DNA of 64,000 nt from Myxacorys californica WJT36-NPBG1 (GTDB taxonomy: Bacteria > Cyanobacteriota > Cyanobacteriia > Leptolyngbyales > Leptolyngbyaceae). The stretch is from positions 1 to 64,000 of the forward strand of contig JAHHHO010000012.1 in NCBI GenBank assembly GCA_019359315.1, read 5' to 3'. Positions within the stretch are counted from its first letter, which is position 1. Each line of letters starts with the position of its first letter. Positions 4,173-64,000 of this stretch are shown piece after piece. The notes under the pieces were generated by a model. It searched no databases. It was not told where the DNA came from and saw only the letters and a list, made by a program, of their open reading frames with translations. The position numbers and the translations under genes are program-made.

Positions 4173-6320
4173 CTATTCGGCTACCGCCGCAGATGAACGA
4201 CGGCGACGACGGCGGGGCGGTTCCTTCTCATCAGATACCGCTGGCTCTAATTCGGGTTGTTCAGGTTGATCATCGACTTCGGAAGATGTTGCGTTGGACT
4301 CAAGATCATCAGATGTAACCGGACTGGACTCAATTAGATCAGGTGCGACACGAACCGCAACATCCTCTTCCTCATCCTCCACGTCGGCTTCAGGCTCAAC
4401 CGGAGATACGATGGAGACTGGAGGAGCTTCGCCTGGAAGAGTAACCGCGACGATCGCAGACTTAGGATTCTTCACTTCTTTGTCGGTCAAGATGAGTGGA
4501 GAAATTCCCATCCACGCATACACGTCTTGTTCCTCCGGCGTCATCTCAACGTGAATGACTTCGGGTGGATCGAGAACAGGCTTCATGCTACCCCGCCGCG
4601 ATCGCCCACGCCGTTCTTCAGAAAATCGAGGCTCTCGCTCTCGTGGCGTAAAGGTCTCCTCGACTGGAGCCGACTCTTCTAGTTCCAAATCATATTCTGC
4701 ACGGGCTGGATACTCTGCTCTCATTGGAGCGTCTGTACGAGTTGGGTATTCTGCTCTCGTTGGGGCAGGAGTGGGAGTGTAACGATTCGGCTCCTCCCAT
4801 GGAGTTGCTTTTGAAGGCACCTCGCGAGTAAACCCTTCACGCCGATTACCGGCACCATTGCGGCGACGACGACTTTGATTAGAACGATTCCGTTCTTGAT
4901 AGCTGGGATGATGCAGAATGTCTAATTCTTGGTCATTGCCTTCAAGCTCTGGCTCTTCACCTCCATCCCAAAATGCTTCAGCTGCAACAGGCTCTCGATC
5001 GCGGCGAGGTTCTACCCGACGAGGTTCCCGCTCTCGCAAAGCCACTGCAGAACGCTCTATGCTCTCTCCCTCTTCATCATGGGTTTCTCCAGGAAGATGT
5101 ACCAACTGCCCCAAACCGGCACAGGTCGGACACGGTCGCCCAAACATCTCATAGATATTCTTCCCTTGACGCTTTCGAGTCAGCTCAATCAGTCCAAGTT
5201 CCGTCAGTTGGGAAATTTGGGGTTTTGCTTTATCGCTGCGGAGGGCTTTATTGAAGTGCTCAAGCACTTGCAACTGATCGCGACGCGCATCCATATCAAT
5301 GAAATCGACAATGATGATGCCCGCAATGTTTCGGAGCCTCAGTTGACGCGCAATCTCAGTAGCAGCTTCACAGTTTGTCCACAGCACTGTCTCTCGTGCG
5401 GTGGCAGAACGAGTAAAGGAACCAGAGTTAACGTCAATCACGGTCAGAGCTTCGGTTCGCTCGATAATGACATAGCCACCTGAAGGTAAGTCTACTCTAG
5501 GTTTCAGAGCTTCGCGGATGGCAGCATTTACGCGGAAGTATTCCAAAATAGGAACACGATCGCGGTGATGATCAATCAATACGCCTTGGGGTAGCTTTCC
5601 GCCGCCCCAATTCATCAACTGCTGCTTGACGCGCTTTAGCCCTGTGTGGGAATCCACGACAATTCGGTTAACATCAGCGTTGTAAACATCACGCAACACG
5701 CGTTGAATAAAATCATCATCCCGGTTCAGCAAGGCGGGGGCACGAGTTGAATTTGCTTCTTGAAGGATCGATTCCCACTGGCGCTGGAGATTTTCTAAGT
5801 CCTCCATGATGGCTTCTTCGGGCATTCCTTCAGCTTCTGTGCGGATGACAATGCCCATTCCCGCAGGTTTTACCAGAATCGCCAAGGCTCTTAAGCGATT
5901 GCGTTCATTTTCATTGCGGATTCTGCGAGACAAATTCACGCCACGACCGAATGGCATTAAGACTAAATAGCGCCCAGGCATCGATATGTTGCCGGTCAAG
6001 CGAGGTCCCTTGTTACCAGTCGGCTCTTTCATCACCTGAACCAATACCTTCTGCTGCGGAGCCAACAGTTCAGTAATGGAACCTGCCGAGCGCTTTAATC
6101 GTAGTGGTCCTAAGTCAGAAACATGAATAAATCCATTGCGCTCAGAATCACCAATATTAACAAAAGCGGCATCAATGCCGGGTAAGACGTTTTCTACGAC
6201 ACCTAAATAGATATCACTAACCTGGTGGCTACCGGTTGCAACAATTAGTTCTTGAGTTTGGTCTTCTGAAAAAACGGCAGCAATTCGATGCTGCTCCGCG
6301 ATAACAATCTGCTTTGGCAT
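4173..6320 (-). CDS. rne: Ribonuclease E (Rne/Rng family)
   Basis: The main endoribonuclease for mRNA decay and RNA maturation. The 715-aa protein has an S1 domain (about 35-125), an RNase H-like/5'-sensor region and the DNase I-like catalytic core, with D296, N298 (VIDVNSGSF) and D339 (IIIVDFIDMD). The Zn-link CPTC is at 397-400 and is followed by GLG. The tail from about 430 is unstructured, rich in Arg, Pro and Glu. It ends in RRRRRRSSA plus AVAE, the cyanobacterial nonapeptide known to bind PNPase. A GAGGA ribosome site sits 7-8 nt before ATG 6320. It heads an operon with rnhB. Confidence 0.96.
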   Translation of the reverse strand: MPKQIVIAEQHRIAAVFSEDQTQELIVATGSHQVSDIYLGVVENVLPGIDAAFVNIGDSERNGFIHVSDLGPLRLKRSAGSITELLAPQQKVLVQVMKEPTGNKGPRLTGNISMPGRYLVLMPFGRGVNLSRRIRNENERNRLRALAILVKPAGMGIVIRTEAEGMPEEAIMEDLENLQRQWESILQEANSTRAPALLNRDDDFIQRVLRDVYNADVNRIVVDSHTGLKRVKQQLMNWGGGKLPQGVLIDHHRDRVPILEYFRVNAAIREALKPRVDLPSGGYVIIERTEALTVIDVNSGSFTRSATARETVLWTNCEAATEIARQLRLRNIAGIIIVDFIDMDARRDQLQVLEHFNKALRSDKAKPQISQLTELGLIELTRKRQGKNIYEMFGRPCPTCAGLGQLVHLPGETHDEEGESIERSAVALREREPRRVEPRRDREPVAAEAFWDGGEEPELEGNDQELDILHHPSYQERNRSNQSRRRRNGAGNRREGFTREVPSKATPWEEPNRYTPTPAPTRAEYPTRTDAPMRAEYPARAEYDLELEESAPVEETFTPREREPRFSEERRGRSRRGSMKPVLDPPEVIHVEMTPEEQDVYAWMGISPLILTDKEVKNPKSAIVAVTLPGEAPPVSIVSPVEPEADVEDEEEDVAVRVAPDLIESSPVTSDDLESNATSSEVDDQPEQPELEPAVSDEKEPPRRRRRRSSAAVAE

Positions 6321-6733
6321 TCAATTTCCTCAAAGTTTGGTTGCGATCAAGCCATTACTGAAGTTTTGCTCTTCTCGCAGAGAATTAGGTGGAATTAGGT
6401 GTGAGATTATTCAGCTAAACCCCGACTACCATCTAAAACTGGGCGACTCATCGCTTGAGATGCTTAAGACGCTACCATCAAGGAAGCTACTACCGTAACA
6501 GACGAGTCAATTCGTGAGCTTCGGCTAGTAGAACAGTGAACTCCTACCCAGAAGCAACCACTGTACGTTATGAAGAATGCGCGAAAAGTCTAGCAAGAAA
6601 GCTGAGGAGTCTAAAGACGGATCTTCCGGCGGCGACCACGGAGAACGTTTAGCCTATATTCAGCCTCTGATGCATTGCATTATAGCGTGCAGACCTACAT
6701 ATGCACAAACTTTACAGATTTTATAGCAATAGA
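6321..6733 (-). other. Long non-coding leader region upstream of rne
   Basis: These 413 bases separate the radical SAM gene from rne, both leftward. No ORF with coding character is present. In cyanobacteria rne has a long 5' UTR through which RNase E limits its own synthesis, so part of this stretch is probably the rne leader and promoter. That assignment is from family knowledge; I see no defined terminator or conserved RNA structure. Confidence 0.4.
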
Positions 6734-9412
6734 CTAGGCGATCGCATCCTCTATCTGACCGATTGCTGCTAGAAAAAGTTGGCAGCGATGAATTGAGAGG
6801 AGACAGAATTCCTGCTCAGCAACCTGTTCTAACATCCTCACAACTTGCTCTGGACGAAGCATTGTGCCGTCATTACGGCAGCTTCCAATGTAGCGAAGCA
6901 CAGCTTTGGATGAGTTGGGCGAGATATTGATCAGGGAAAGTGAAAATAAGCGATCGCGCCCATTAATTTGATGCACTTTGCCAGATTTCGTTTTTTGCTC
7001 TAACCACACTTCGGCCTGCGATAGAACCGACTCAACCCAAGTTTGCCAGTTTGAGAATGCAGACTGAGCGGCAACATCTACCGTAATTTCATATTCTGCT
7101 TTTTCTAATATTTGAGTTGCAGCAGGGGTTTTGAGACTGACCTCTTCAACAGCATACACAGGTAAGTTAGCCGGAAGATGAGTACTTAGCTTATGGCGGA
7201 AGTCTTCGAGGTCTAGTGATCGCGTCAACTCAAAATCAACGATTTCACCCGAACTTGTAACACCGAGCGGCAATGCATTTGCGGCAACAATTCGAGGACT
7301 GGGATGAAATCCTTGCGTAAATGCAATCGGAATCGCCGCACGTCGTACGACCCGATCAAATAAGCGCATCATATCTAAATGACTTAATAGCGCCATGTCT
7401 CCTACCTTGCCCAGCCGCACCCGGATGCGCTGCACGCGATCGGGAACCGGCTTGAAATGTCCATTGAACTGAGGAACTGGTAGAGGCGGAACAATCACAT
7501 TGTGGCCGAAATCATTACTACACACCCCGCAGTGAGAACACCCGTCAAAGGAGCAGTCTGGCACGATTGCCGCTTCTAAAGCTTTTTGGAGGTCATCTTT
7601 CAACCACTGCTTATCGATTCCAGTATTGAGATAATCCCACGGCAACGGAGTATCCAGCGAAGCTGCACCTGCCGCCTGTTCAAAAACATTCCATTCTCCG
7701 CTTTCAACCTGGCGATATTTCCAGCCAACACCCGATTCTTCGATGGCTTGCGTCCACGCGTCATACGCACGATCGAGGCTTTCCCACCAGGCATCCATGC
7801 CCGCACCTAGCTCCCACGCCCGTCGAACGACGGGTGCTAACCTGCGATCGCCCCGACCGACAAAATCTTCCATTGCAGAAATCCGGACATCGGTAAAGTT
7901 AATTTTGACGCCCCGAATCGAACGAAAAGCGTCTTTGAGAAGATTCTGTTTGCGCTTAAACTCTGTGGTCGAGACAGAATGCCATTGAAAAGGCGTGTGG
8001 GGTTTAGGTGTGAAGTTAGAAATTGTCACATTAAAATCCAACCGTCGTCTGCCCTGCTGGCTGCATTCGCGGCGCAGCCAGCGCAGGGTGTCTGCGATTC
8101 CTAGCACATCTTCATCTGTCTCACCCGGCAACCCAATCATGAAGTAAAGCTTGACCTTATCCCAACCTTGCTCATGGGCTGTTTTGATGCCGCGAAGCAG
8201 TTCTTCATTCGTCAAGCCCTTGTTAATGATGTCTCGCATCCGTTGAGTCCCTGCTTCCGGGGCAAAGGTGATGCCAATCGGGCGAGTTCCACCAATAATG
8301 TGAGCAATGTTTTCGTCAAAGCGATCGACACGCTGACTTGGCAGAGACAGCGAGATATTCTCGTCTTTGAGACGGTTTTTGATTTCAACTCCAACCGCAG
8401 GCAGCGCGAGATAATCTGAACAGCTGAGCGACAAGAGCGAGAATTCGTTATACCCCGTTGCTTGCATTCCCTGCTCAATCGCATCAATGACCTTTTCTGG
8501 CTCTACATCCCGCGCTGGGCGAGTCAGCATTCCGGGCTGACAAAACCGACAGCCGCGAGTACAGCCGCGTCGAATCTCGATTGTGAGGCGATCGTGAACC
8601 GTTTCCACATAGGGAACTAAGCCAATTGAATAAGCCGGGATCGGATCGGCAACCCGACGCAGAATTCGAGCTGGAACATCTGGATGATTTGGATGGATCG
8701 AACCATCAGCCGCCATGTCATAGAACTGTGGCACATAGACGCCTGGAACCTGTGCCAAATCGAGCAAGATCTCTTCACGACTCAGTTTTGCTGCTTTGCC
8801 TTCCTCAAGCACTAGCCCAATTTCAGGCAACAGTTCTTCACCATCACCAAGGGCAACAAAATCGAAGAAGTCGGCGTAGGGTTCAGGGTTAGAAGTTGCC
8901 GTCTGTCCACCTGCAAAGATTAAGGGGTAATCAGTCCCCGATCGCTCTCGCCAAGTTAACGGGATGCCTGCTAGGTCGAGCATCTCTAAAATATTAGTTG
9001 CCCCTAGCTCGTAGCTTAGACTAAACCCTAGAATATCGAAATCAATTAGTGGACGGCGGGATTCGACCGCAAACAACGGAGTGCCCGTAGCGCGAAGCTT
9101 GGCAGCAAAGTCGGAAGCAGGGAGGTAGGCACGATCGCACAATTGCCGGGGTTGGGTGTTCAGAATGCTGTAGAGAATGATGTGTCCCAAATTAGACGCA
9201 CCCACTTCATACACTTCTGGGTACGTTAAGACCCAGCGGATGGTGCTGTCTTGCCACGGCTTATGCACTGCGCCTAGCTCATTTCCCAAATACCGAGCCG
9301 GACGAAGAATATCCGAGGTGAGGAGTTCTTCGACAGCAACAGTTTGGTCGCGCTTCTTAGGGGGAGCATCCGTTGGAATTACCACGATGACTTTGCCTAG
9401 CAGAGAGGACAT
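6734..9412 (-). CDS. B12-binding radical SAM protein with C-terminal DUF2344 (TIGR03960 type)
   Basis: An 892-aa protein with three parts. The N-terminal cobalamin-binding-like region (about 55-210) includes VYEVGASNLGHIILYSIL. The radical SAM core has the 4Fe-4S motif C284-x3-C288-x2-C291 (RRGCTRGCRFCQPG) and GLPGETDEDV further on. The C-terminal DUF2344 domain (about 675-890) begins RIRVRLGKVGDMALLSHLD and has the GFHPSPR motif. A cluster of Cys (SFDGCSHCGVCSNDFG) just before DUF2344 could hold a further metal site. In many bacteria this family sits beside rne/rng and is suspected of RNA or translation-linked modification, but its reaction is unknown. Confidence 0.9.
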   Translation of the reverse strand: MSSLLGKVIVVIPTDAPPKKRDQTVAVEELLTSDILRPARYLGNELGAVHKPWQDSTIRWVLTYPEVYEVGASNLGHIILYSILNTQPRQLCDRAYLPASDFAAKLRATGTPLFAVESRRPLIDFDILGFSLSYELGATNILEMLDLAGIPLTWRERSGTDYPLIFAGGQTATSNPEPYADFFDFVALGDGEELLPEIGLVLEEGKAAKLSREEILLDLAQVPGVYVPQFYDMAADGSIHPNHPDVPARILRRVADPIPAYSIGLVPYVETVHDRLTIEIRRGCTRGCRFCQPGMLTRPARDVEPEKVIDAIEQGMQATGYNEFSLLSLSCSDYLALPAVGVEIKNRLKDENISLSLPSQRVDRFDENIAHIIGGTRPIGITFAPEAGTQRMRDIINKGLTNEELLRGIKTAHEQGWDKVKLYFMIGLPGETDEDVLGIADTLRWLRRECSQQGRRRLDFNVTISNFTPKPHTPFQWHSVSTTEFKRKQNLLKDAFRSIRGVKINFTDVRISAMEDFVGRGDRRLAPVVRRAWELGAGMDAWWESLDRAYDAWTQAIEESGVGWKYRQVESGEWNVFEQAAGAASLDTPLPWDYLNTGIDKQWLKDDLQKALEAAIVPDCSFDGCSHCGVCSNDFGHNVIVPPLPVPQFNGHFKPVPDRVQRIRVRLGKVGDMALLSHLDMMRLFDRVVRRAAIPIAFTQGFHPSPRIVAANALPLGVTSSGEIVDFELTRSLDLEDFRHKLSTHLPANLPVYAVEEVSLKTPAATQILEKAEYEITVDVAAQSAFSNWQTWVESVLSQAEVWLEQKTKSGKVHQINGRDRLFSLSLINISPNSSKAVLRYIGSCRNDGTMLRPEQVVRMLEQVAEQEFCLLSIHRCQLFLAAIGQIEDAIA

Positions 9413-60511: not shown

Positions 60512-60889
60512 AAGGTTCAACGGTGCAAGTTTAAGGTGAGCTGATGCAGGTCTGAGGTTCGGCGTTGAACCTCAGAGGTGGGCTGACGCAGATCTGAGGT
60601 TCGGCGTTGAACCTCAGAGGTGGGCTGACGTAGGTTGAACATTCAAGCGCGAATGTCTGAGGTGGGTTGATGCAGGTCTGAGGTGGGCTGATGCAGGTCT
60701 AAGGTTCGTCGGTGAATATCAGAGGTGGGCTGATGCAGGTCTGAGGTTCGTCGGTGAATATCAGAGGTGGGCTGGCGTAAGTCTGAGGTTCAACGATGTA
60801 GGTCAGAGATGAGTTGACGTAGGTTGAACATTTAAGCGCGAATGTCTGAGGTTCAAGCGCTGTTGCAGCCGCATCAACACCGAACCTCA
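60512..60889. repeat. Tandem array of 18 units of 21 bp
   Basis: Units begin exactly every 21 bp: 60512, 60533, 60554, 60575, 60596 and so on to 60869. Two main types alternate, GAGGTGGGCTGATGCAGGTC(T) and GAGGTTCGGCGTTGAACCTC(A); a third is AACATTCAAGCGCGAATGTC(T). Together A+B gives a 42-bp period. The B units contain a perfect 8-bp-arm hairpin (TGAGGTTC...GAACCTCA at 60553-60574 and 60595-60616). On the minus strand the array reads open in 14-residue repeats with one TAG. Confidence 0.9.
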
Positions 60890-60902: not shown

Positions 60903-61395
60903 TTAGTTAGAAGCTGAAGCCATTTCAGGCGTTGCTTTAACTGACTTACCGCGAATTGCTTTGAACAAGCTGCCGAGTTGCTCTGCGATCGCTTTTAATC
61001 CGGGAGTCTTTTTAGAAGCGGTCTTCACATAGTCGTAGACGGTGAGGCTGTTGCTCATCGCGTCGCTGCCGACTGCCATGAGAGTATCGTCTACCTGCTC
61101 ACTCAGTTGGGTGAACAGCATCAGCAGTTCGGTGAGGTCGGTTGCGAGGTCATATTCCTTGGCAAAACGAGGGAGGTCAAAACTTGGCAGGAAGAATGTT
61201 GGGGTTGCTTTGCGCGGCGGTGAGGCTGTTTTGCACGAAGGCAAGGCGTTTGTCACCAAGCTTATAGAGGCGTTTGCGATCGTCGGCGCTCAGTGTGATC
61301 AGGAAGGGAAGCTTTTGTTGAATGAGGGCGATCGCTTGCTTGATTTCTTGCAGATCGGCATCGGAAAGGATTGCGTTAGGGTCGCGATAAGACAT
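60903..61395 (-). pseudogene. Conserved hypothetical protein broken by a frameshift
   Basis: Two overlapping leftward frames make one protein: MSYRDPNAILSDADLQEIKQ starts at 61395 and runs to ...NPNILPAKF, then stops; the next frame continues with FDLPRFAKEYDLATDLTELL to MASASN. Removing one base of an A-run (61179-61182) joins them into about 163 aa. The joined sequence resembles a conserved hypothetical family with an Asp/Leu-rich helical fold (...LxELxxLxxxLxxxxDDTLxxxGSxA...). Could be a true mutation, programmed frameshift or sequencing error. Confidence 0.75.
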
Positions 61396-61527
61396 GGTAG
61401 AAGCGCTCAATAAAAATGTAAGGAATGAGTGAAGGGAACGATCGTAGAATTCCCGAACAATAAAAGATAGGAACATTACAGGTAAGTTCGGGTACAACGG
61501 TAGAGGCTGACCAGAACGGGATGGAAA

Positions 61528-61869
61528 ATGAACGACAGCGATCGCGTCAGAATCGAAGCTTTTATTAACAACTGGACAGGCTCAAGCGGCAACGAGCGAG
61601 CCAACAGCCAGTCGTTCTTTGTGGATCTCTGCGATGCGTTAGGGGTCAAGCGTCCTAACGCGAAGGGGAGTATTCTGGGTGATCCGTACTGCTTTGAGAA
61701 AGACGTTAAATTCTTTTCGCTTAATGGCCCAGTCACGAGCAAATTCATCGATTTCTACAAAGTCGATCACTTCATTATCGAAGCTAAGCTGGGAGGGCAC
61801 TACACGCCACGATCGTATGTCGAGCGCTTAGTGCTTCAGGTAATGATGAAGCCGTTGAGCGAGAAATGA
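61528..61869 (+). pseudogene. N-terminal fragment of an MmeI-like restriction-modification methyltransferase
   Basis: 113 aa. FINNWTGSSGNERANSQSFF, then VDLCDALGVKRPN, YCFEKDVKFF and IDFYKVDHFIIEAKLG match the N-terminal nuclease-like domain (PD-(D/E)XK: D...ExK in IDFY...EAK) of type IIL MmeI/YeeA-like proteins, which are usually about 900 aa or more. The similarity ends after EAKLG; a short unrelated tail and a stop follow. The methyltransferase and target-recognition parts are missing. Confidence 0.78.
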
Positions 61870-61947
61870 ATGAATATAGCCGCTGAGGCGAAGTAAAACC
61901 TCTTAGATAAAAATGATCATCTTGTAACTTTAGAGTCTTATCAAACA

Positions 61948-63366
61948 ATGCATTTTTCTGAGAAAGACATACAGAACTACATTTGGGAAAATCGTGCAGA
62001 CTGGGAAGCCCTCGTTGAGCCTCTTGAACTTCCTGACGTATACCAATTTTCTGATGACCTCTCAGATCTAACACCAGAACTTCTACTGCACAACCAGACT
62101 CTAGAGAGAGTAGAAGCAGTATATGATTCTATTTCAGAATTAGAGCTTTTTGGATGTGAAGTTCCGTTAGAGAAAGCCTCTAATTCAACTATAAGAGCTG
62201 ACTTTCTAACCTTATCTTCCCATGAAACTAGCGTAGTAGTAATAGAGCTAAAAAAAAGCTTTCAAACTGAAAGACAAGCATTCACAGAACTTCTAGCGTA
62301 CTCGAACCACCTAACGAATCTTTTTCCGGGTATGTGTAGAGAAGACATAACTTATGTTCTTATCTCACCGATGAATACAAGAATAGTGAGGGAAGCTTTC
62401 ATTCAGACCCTTATCTTTGATAAACGTCCTATTTGCGCATTAGTTCCAAAGTTGTCCGATGAAAGTGATATATCAACCCTCAAACTTTGCCCCTGGATAC
62501 CATCTTTAGAAGAGATGGTTAATTTCACCCAGGCAGCTTTTCATCCATGTAATCTCGATGTTTGCAAAGTTGTATGGGAGTATTCTGAAAGAGTTTGGGA
62601 TCCGCCAGTAAATGAGCCAATAAACGATCAGTTAATCAACCAGCTTGACTCTGTGGCTTCAATGGCTGCTCAACTTATGGAGCAACAAGGAATTCACGGT
62701 TTTGCGTATTGTTCTCAGTTATGGTCCGAATTATCTCAATCCTTACCTTTTACTAATTCTTTAGTAATCGTAGGGTTAAACCCTTATGCAATTGCAAGTA
62801 GCATATATTCAAAGGAGAACGAGCGAGAAGAGGAAGAGCCAGAATTTTACACGCGTTACATTCCAGAGATCTCAGAGATTATTTTAGGCTTGTCAAAGTC
62901 AAAAAATACAAATAGCTATTCTGATGATCCCTTGAGCCGACTTCACCATGGGTGGCGTTCACATCTCTTTAATATTGCGTTCAAAGCTGTAAGGCTTGCA
63001 ACTAAGACAACAGACGGATGTCTTCATATTGATTACGGCTCGATGACTTGGGCAGAATATCAGATGTTACCTATGGAGGACATTCACTGTACAAATTGTG
63101 CTGTGCGTGCCACTGGTATTGTTAGGGATCTATTCTGGAAAGTTGTGAATCTGGATTATGATGTTGCGGCGAAAGTAGGTATAAGAAATCATCCAGTTCA
63201 TGAAGATATGTTTTACAGTGCAATCGAAGCTCTTAACAATAACTGGGATTTCCGTGATTTTATTAAACGTATGTTTGGTGAGAGCACAGACATAAATCTT
63301 CGTCCAATTATTAGCAATTTTCGTTCTTATGACGAAAACGATTCTTGTCTAGAGCCGCCATTCTAA
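61948..63366 (+). CDS. Uncharacterised protein with PD-(D/E)XK-like core
   Basis: 472 aa, unrecognised as a named family. The N-terminus FSEKDIQNYIWENRADWEAL resembles the opening helix of nuclease-like proteins. A PD-(D/E)XK arrangement is visible: R83-A-D85, E100-L-K102 (VVVIELKKSF), then Q110...Y118 (RQAFTELLAYSNHL). The C-terminal half has CTNC near residue 390 and many aromatic residues but no motif I know. Codons are AT-rich and there is not a single HIP1 site, unlike the neighbours, pointing to recent transfer. It abuts a possible methyltransferase C-terminus in the same frame. Restriction or anti-phage function is inference. Confidence 0.7.
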   Translation: MHFSEKDIQNYIWENRADWEALVEPLELPDVYQFSDDLSDLTPELLLHNQTLERVEAVYDSISELELFGCEVPLEKASNSTIRADFLTLSSHETSVVVIELKKSFQTERQAFTELLAYSNHLTNLFPGMCREDITYVLISPMNTRIVREAFIQTLIFDKRPICALVPKLSDESDISTLKLCPWIPSLEEMVNFTQAAFHPCNLDVCKVVWEYSERVWDPPVNEPINDQLINQLDSVASMAAQLMEQQGIHGFAYCSQLWSELSQSLPFTNSLVIVGLNPYAIASSIYSKENEREEEEPEFYTRYIPEISEIILGLSKSKNTNSYSDDPLSRLHHGWRSHLFNIAFKAVRLATKTTDGCLHIDYGSMTWAEYQMLPMEDIHCTNCAVRATGIVRDLFWKVVNLDYDVAAKVGIRNHPVHEDMFYSAIEALNNNWDFRDFIKRMFGESTDINLRPIISNFRSYDENDSCLEPPF

Positions 63367-63567
63367 TCAATAGAATTTATTAACTTTCTCCTCTTCGCCA
63401 TCCGCGATCGCCGTCCCACCCACGGTGGCGAGTGTCCATTTGCCCAAGTCACCGCCCAGTTCAAAAACGCCACCCGTCAAAAACAAGCAATACTCGACAG
63501 CCTTGAAAGCCTAGAAGAGTTAGGCATTCTCGCTAGTCACGAAGACGAGAACCACATTCGCCACTGA
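63367..63567 (+). pseudogene. C-terminal protein fragment, possibly from a methyltransferase
   Basis: In the same frame as the preceding gene and directly after its stop, the frame is open for 66 codons without a start: ...RRPTHGGECPFAQVTAQFKN, then ATRQKQAILDSLESLEELGI and a short tail. It looks like a winged-helix end, similar in form to the C-terminal piece of MmeI-like methyltransferases. Composition turns GC-rich with a HIP1-like site at about 63402, marking the border of the AT-rich segment. Confidence 0.5.
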
Positions 63568-63606
63568 TATCTCGCAGACCTTCTCAAAGCGAGTTAAAAG
63601 CTAAAC

Positions 63607-63731: not shown

Positions 63732-63968
63732 ATGAGTCGATCGCTAACCATTTCCGACGAGCTTTACCAGCATCTAGAAACCACTGCCAAAGCACGTGGA
63801 CTAGACAGCATTGAAAATTTGATTGCAGAACTCATTCAGAGAGAAACCGTTCTAATTCAGCATCGAGAAGCCATTGATCGGATCAATCAACGGCGTGAAC
63901 AATTATTTGAGAGATATGGTGAGATGCTAGACAGCACAGACCTCATTCGAGAAGACCGAGACCGTTAA
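63732..63968 (+). CDS. VapB-like antitoxin
   Basis: 78 aa. N-terminal ribbon-helix-helix-like DNA-binding start MSRSLTISDELYQHLETTAK, a helical linker with NLIAELIQRE and a charged C-terminus EQLFERYGEMLDSTDLIRED. The stop overlaps the next start (TAATG), so toxin and antitoxin are coupled. Confidence 0.75.
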   Translation: MSRSLTISDELYQHLETTAKARGLDSIENLIAELIQRETVLIQHREAIDRINQRREQLFERYGEMLDSTDLIREDRDR

Positions 63969-64000
63969 TGACCCAACTCGTCGTTGATAGCAGCGTTGCG
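63968..64000 (+). CDS. VapC-like PIN-domain toxin, truncated by window end
   Basis: MTQLVVDSSVA: the LVVDSSVA start with the first acidic residue is typical of PIN-domain ribonuclease toxins. Only 11 codons are inside the window, so the rest is unseen. Confidence 0.65.
   Translation, partial: MTQLVVDSSVA

Follow-up and report, generated by a model that had tools for sequence, protein, structure and literature searches.

What kind of gene lies within a broken restriction gene of Myxacorys californica, and how did it come to be there? The window analysed here, a stretch of 64,000 nucleotides from one contig of the draft assembly, includes a region for which a model reading only the letters (hereafter, the original prediction) had proposed that an old restriction gene was replaced by a new defence-type gene. 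Our analysis supports this interpretation, which was right in outline. We favour, with moderate confidence, the reading that a decayed MmeI-like gene now houses a horizontally acquired, single-gene nuclease with a predicted anti-phage function. Two features had not been foreseen: the nuclease belongs to a broad, unnamed protein family, and the remnant of the restriction gene bears lesions of its own.

The identity of the flanking fragments was established by comparison with intact genes. The 113-aa ORF at 61528-61869 matched the Pfam model MmeI_N above its curated cut-off (E 7.9e-9), across the first half of the profile only (positions 5-71 of 181), as well as the PADLOC model of type IIG REase_MTase proteins (E 1.7e-29), which bears out its description as an MmeI-like N-terminal fragment. 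Searches of relatives' whole genomes placed this fragment at the beginning of ORFs that are 1146-1497 codons long. Meanwhile, the fragment at 63367-63567, which had been called a possible methyltransferase C-terminus, matched the C-terminus of those same intact MmeI-like ORFs in five genomes (best E 5e-16, 60% identity). Each of these five cyanobacterial ORFs matches the N-terminal, middle and C-terminal pieces in order within a single open frame, and the two that were scanned against Pfam contained MmeI_N, MmeI_hel, MmeI_Mtase and MmeI_TRD. Because both fragments match the same intact ORFs in order, they represent opposite ends of a single MmeI-type IIG gene, and this common origin is far beyond chance. 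The suggestion that they might derive from unrelated families thus failed.

The remnant was read through its stops by blastp, with residues numbered after an intact homologue (G018). The N-terminal piece (61528..61785, + strand) covers residues ~9-93 at 50-57% identity to intact relatives, accounts for the Pfam and PADLOC matches, and retains the D...EAK part of the MmeI-like nuclease motif. It is followed by a second piece (61783..61908, + strand) that corresponds to residues ~339-380 (HYTPRSYVERLV..., 43-59% identity) and contains a TGA at 61867-61869 and one more stop further downstream. The C-terminal remnant (63391..63594, + strand; residues ~1085-1148, the end of the protein) is 48-61% identical to intact C-termini and is interrupted by one in-frame TGA at 63565-63567, past which similarity extends to 63594. 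Altogether, the remnant has three in-frame stops. The N-terminal fragment is itself the product of an internal deletion of ~245 aa, in which residues ~9-93 became fused to ~339 onward near 61783-61791. The two MmeI stretches resemble each other at this point (EAKQGG / SKLGAHYT), so the loss may represent a short-homology deletion. A further ~705 aa, comprising the methyltransferase (MTase) and target recognition (TRD) regions, are gone between the second and C-terminal pieces, where the foreign segment now stands. Missing from the remnant are therefore the remainder of the N-terminal domain, the helical spacer and the bulk of the nuclease/spacer region, along with the entire MTase and TRD.

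With the MTase and TRD missing and stops in frame, the window copy cannot function as a restriction-modification enzyme; no functional MTase and TRD in one frame are left in it, and it is a pseudogene. Fragmented MmeI-like genes also occur in another genome of the host's family (G024), indicating that the decay is not peculiar to a gene with an insert. Since the remnant has its own deletion and stops, the loss of restriction function may have preceded the arrival of the nuclease gene. The replacement proposed originally is accordingly sound in the physical sense, while a functional replacement of one defence gene by another is less certain, as the older gene may already have been dead.

The foreign segment spans 61909..63390 (+ strand), with borders precise to ~20 bases, and has no similarity to MmeI. 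It contains the 472-aa ORF (61948..63366, + strand), which encodes a predicted PD-(D/E)XK nuclease of the phrog_30092 family. The ORF is AT-rich, as had been noted: its G+C content is 39.4%, against 48.4% for the window, and just one of 626 intervals of ORF size is as AT-rich. Its GC3 is 33%, compared with 54-56% in two neighbouring genes. HIP1 sites, also said to be missing, are indeed absent from 61538 to 63404, but this adds little to the case for foreignness since 7.7% of insert-length intervals are likewise HIP1-free. No convincing terminal repeats or transposase were seen to border the insert, and no match to a sigma-70-like promoter was found upstream of the ORF on its own strand. In the sole genome available from the same genus, the downstream 2OG oxygenase gene is syntenic and nothing 5′ of it matches, so the pre-insertion state is not directly readable.

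The surroundings of the remnant held further observations. A VapB-like and PIN/VapC-like toxin-antitoxin pair, absent from the four relatives tested, lies directly 3′ of the dead MmeI gene (63732-64000, continuing to contig position 64397), suggesting that the locus gathers defence and toxin-antitoxin genes. On the other side, at 60903-61497 (- strand), a conserved cyanobacterial gene that appears DUF1641-like by eye is split into overlapping ORFs (61177-61497 and 60903-61259). This gene forms one frame of 166-221 codons in four other genomes, and the split may reflect a frameshift, a pseudogene or an assembly error. A 42-base unit is repeated in tandem (~3.6 copies, with nested 21-base repeats) at 60534-60824, between a glycosyltransferase gene and the broken genes. 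Among the MmeI-like methyltransferases of other genomes, two that are otherwise intact carry a DUF559 nuclease domain inserted in frame immediately ahead of the catalytic NPPF motif (L049 in G033, residues ~571-757, and L050 in G032). It is flanked by the repeats LPSPLAPLPEGEG / RRVGDEG and looks like a mobile unit inside a restriction enzyme.

The first relatives of the 472-aa protein came from a plasmid collection and were distant, mostly 24-28% identical. A profile built on them retrieved 37 loci from a species-genome collection and 13 from IMG/VR, while a single-sequence search of genome contigs and one viral-contig profile gave no match. The best homologues, from Pectobacterium versatile and three viral contigs, are 47-50% identical over nearly the full length. 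In all, ~50 members were recovered, from Proteobacteria, Bacteroidota and Cyanobacteria as well as from P2-like prophages, plasmids, one integrase-primase element and one contig of a filamentous phage. Six residues are invariant in the 43 aligned homologues (E5, D85, E100, K102, W368 and G390). Among these are the three catalytic candidates that the original prediction had placed at D85, E100 and K102, positions that lie outside the search pattern by which members were gathered. R109, A111, E114, A117 and Y118 do not vary either, but these five fall inside that pattern, so their invariance was selected for by the search. The motif, or a near variant of it, is also retained in plasmid members that tblastn had detected independently of the pattern.

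The family corresponds to phrog_30092 of PHROGs v4, annotated there as of unknown function, whose profile matches 41 of the 43 aligned members. The window protein is a divergent member that matches it at E 1.7e-17 over residues 2-275 only. No named family in Pfam, NCBIfam or PADLOC covers the 472-aa protein; PADLOC returned just weak matches to the candidate families PDC-S11 and PDC-S02. The E. coli members are annotated as hypothetical proteins, a literature search on the family name found nothing, and a collection of 50,697 named phage records contained no family match. There are also long relatives of 718-744 aa (L041, L046, and L063 at 5430-7664 in G012), which share the nuclease half and have a much longer C-terminal part; the 744-aa protein matched no Pfam model.

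Structure prediction provided insights into the likely activity of the protein. An AlphaFold2 model computed with the 43-sequence alignment (pLDDT 86, pTM 0.85) separates a nuclease domain (~1-195, with D85, E100 and K102) from a C-terminal domain (~197-447, with H250, N278-P279, W368 and G390). D85 lies within strand 83-90, and E100 sits at the end of strand 96-101, next to K102, as expected for the PD-(D/E)XK superfamily. Foldseek matched the model with high probability to NucS (2vld, E 9.8e-4), EndoMS (5gke, E 2e-3), XisH (2okf, 2inb) and Nt.BspD6I, and weakly to Can2/Card1; named matches in its viral library were MmcB-like and PD-(D/E)XK proteins. The N-terminal half is therefore a predicted member of the PD-(D/E)XK superfamily, nearest to NucS/EndoMS, in agreement with the core recognised from sequence, and the absence of a nuclease fold can be set aside. 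The C-terminal half, folded alone, reached a pLDDT of 84. Its Foldseek matches in the PDB were at chance level (best Thg1, E 0.024), and neither the Pfam scan nor the fold search found a modified-base reader domain, although a novel reader is possible.

Beyond the PD-(D/E)XK superfamily, the 472-aa protein is unrelated to the MmeI protein whose gene surrounds its own. NucS/EndoMS offers the closest solved nuclease fold, with a match confined to ~120-136 alignment columns, and the family adds a C-terminal domain unrelated to these enzymes, so it is not an orthologue. Four family members have weak matches to Pfam NucS_C; the NCBIfam NucS model matched weakly in two of the 43 and not in the window protein. 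As only the core aligns, we rejected membership in NucS/EndoMS. The D/ExK region also gave sub-threshold matches to HSDR_N of type I restriction enzymes in 13 of the 43 members (best 3e-4; window protein E 0.016), but the family differs from these enzymes in having no helicase/translocase and no HsdM/HsdS partner. The lack of a methyltransferase partner argues against a classic restriction-modification system.

The best working analogy for the 472-aa protein is Shedu. Shedu (SduA) is likewise a single protein with a PD-(D/E)XK nuclease and a second domain, encoded by mobile elements and among other defence genes, and its N-terminal clamp binds DNA ends (PMC12904381). However, the nuclease domain is N-terminal here (motif at 85-102) and C-terminal in the Shedu protein examined. 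The family profile aligned with the Shedu protein of R. gallicum along the ExK strand alone (-3.6 bits), and PADLOC returned no Shedu match for the window protein. Membership in Shedu was thus rejected.

The distribution of the family points to horizontal transfer. Among 42 genomes of the same order, a full-length copy occurs in the host only, and one other genome has a distant match, in a frame of 745 codons. Matches are present in eight of 386 cyanobacterial genomes, four of which, including the host, cover nearly the whole profile, and in 25 of 5426 E. coli genomes. In a maximum-likelihood tree, the window protein clusters with members from Pectobacterium, viral contigs and Bacteroidota (support 89/93, slightly short of the customary threshold), and the remaining cyanobacterial members fall in a different, supported clade (97/87); the window copy thus has a transfer history of its own. 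At 49 of 50 loci the homologue has a lower G+C content than the adjoining sequence. Distant homologues (~30% identity) in other cyanobacteria lie between genes, where nothing has been disrupted. An undisrupted context in relatives had been named as grounds for doubting the original prediction, and such contexts do exist, but they show only that the gene is wandering cargo and do not overturn the reading. In two cyanobacteria (L073, and L122 in G132), the same arrangement recurs, with a distant homologue directly 3′ of the 6-phosphogluconate dehydrogenase gene, suggesting that some copies were vertically inherited for a while.

The genomic contexts of the homologues are those of mobile and defence genes. 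The Pectobacterium copy lies beside the tyrosine integrase gene of an element that also encodes a Toprim/D5 primase; another lies on a Zot-bearing contig, as in filamentous phages, and a third adjoins a terminase gene. Seven P2-like contigs share the order CI repressor, integrase, homologue, with spacing from a 4-base overlap to 20 bases; the repressor and integrase were confirmed by Pfam for one contig (L106) and assigned through BLAST clustering for the others. Since the homologue shares the strand of the repressor and integrase genes and follows them immediately, it may be expressed in the lysogen. At some loci the neighbours are defence genes, as seen case by case: Gabija (both GajA and GajB), a type I R gene, a type IIG RM gene, a PD-T4-6-like kinase, Shedu plus an ATPase/UvrD pair in R. 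gallicum, AbiGi on E. coli plasmids of ~111 kb, and a retron-type HNH/ATPase pair in Gluconobacter. Apart from the P2-like phage genes, no partner gene recurs across loci, and in 35 of the 50 copies there is no tight packing against a gene on the same strand.

Excerpts of a study on P2 and P4 describe the P4 psu-int and P2 cos-proximal regions as defence hotspots (PMC9122126). The homologues found by an integrase in a Toprim/D5-primase element and in P2-like prophages resemble this prophage and satellite cargo. The P2 hotspot in those excerpts is cos-proximal (old/tin), whereas in the P2-like contigs the homologue lies after the CI repressor and int, and the family is not named in those excerpts.

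Based on these findings, we postulate the following course of events. A once intact MmeI-like gene broke down as it suffered an internal deletion, acquired stops and lost both MTase and TRD, and its middle is now occupied by a phrog_30092 nuclease gene acquired horizontally, from a family that travels on prophages, integrative elements, plasmids and islands. The 472-aa gene is probably a defence gene, still unnamed; we infer this role from neighbourhood and fold, and the activity and recognition target of the protein in the same conditional sense. The N-terminal domain (D85-E100-K102) would cut invading phage or plasmid DNA, and the C-terminal domain (H250, N278-P279, W368, G390) would provide recognition or activation, making a methyltransferase partner unnecessary. 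Because prophages and integrative elements carry the gene, something other than methylation should protect self-DNA, for example a rule based on DNA ends, branches or modified bases. The cue would more likely be a DNA state (ends or branched structures, with modified bases as the rival) than a methylation-protected sequence. More tentatively, the family may represent a widespread immune nuclease without a name, combining a PD-(D/E)XK domain with a C-terminal sensor of undescribed fold that responds to a new phage-DNA cue, and spreading across phyla on phages, integrative elements and plasmids to settle in dead restriction loci, among other places.

Several alternatives deserve consideration, two of which would leave the gene a role in immunity. 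A type IV-like, modification-dependent enzyme, whose C-terminal domain reads modified bases and whose N-terminal domain cuts, would still be a defence protein with another rule for self and non-self. A single protein without a methyltransferase partner, a nuclease followed by a conserved second domain, and prophage carriers that must spare their own DNA would all suit such an enzyme, but Pfam and Foldseek found no known reader domain and the nearest nuclease folds, NucS/EndoMS, are structure-specific enzymes; we regard it as a minority possibility to be taken seriously. PD-(D/E)XK abortive-infection effectors exist, and the C-terminal domain might sense a phage protein or signal so that the nuclease destroys host DNA or RNA. 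This would fit a solitary cargo gene of prophages and islands, the abortive-infection genes that neighbour some copies, and the weak Can2/Card1 matches; as no specific sensor domain was recognised, we consider it unlikely, if plausible. A role in the recombination, replication or maintenance of mobile elements, rather than in defence, is quite improbable. Such housekeeping or repair would be compatible with how often prophages, integrative elements and plasmids carry the gene and with the NucS-like core, yet copies also stand alone between cyanobacterial chromosomal genes or beside Gabija, Shedu and RM genes, most related elements lack the gene, as the low E. coli count illustrates, and the named phage records lack it altogether.

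The remaining alternatives concern how the segment came to lie where it does. PD-(D/E)XK homing enzymes exist in cyanobacteria, and a nuclease ORF within another gene is what one would expect if a homing or selfish endonuclease had invaded the MmeI gene. However, the insertion is not clean, given the ~705 missing residues of the host gene; the sites of the homologues are unrelated, with no common target gene, and no intron or intein signature was seen. We thus disfavour this origin as very unlikely. The junctions could also be an artefact, as the assembly is a draft of 128 contigs and the segment is foreign in composition, but this is extremely unlikely: the flanks are both ends of one gene in correct order and orientation on one 110-kb contig, the 472-aa ORF is intact, a nearest relative only ~51% identical leaves no obvious contaminant source, and the G+C deficit is shared by the family as a whole. 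We therefore retain the reading of a decayed MmeI-like gene that houses an acquired, putatively anti-phage nuclease.

These findings have implications for the understanding of bacterial immunity. At this locus the turnover of defence genes can be followed base by base: in physical terms, a foreign nuclease gene has taken the place of a dead type IIG gene. The locus is one instance of this process, and the protein family is the more interesting part. The P2-like prophages that carry the gene behind repressor and integrase offer a ready system for the study of superinfection immunity. If our reading is confirmed, a compact, one-gene nuclease family would join the immune systems of bacteria, bringing with it a conserved C-terminal domain without a structural relative in the PDB search.
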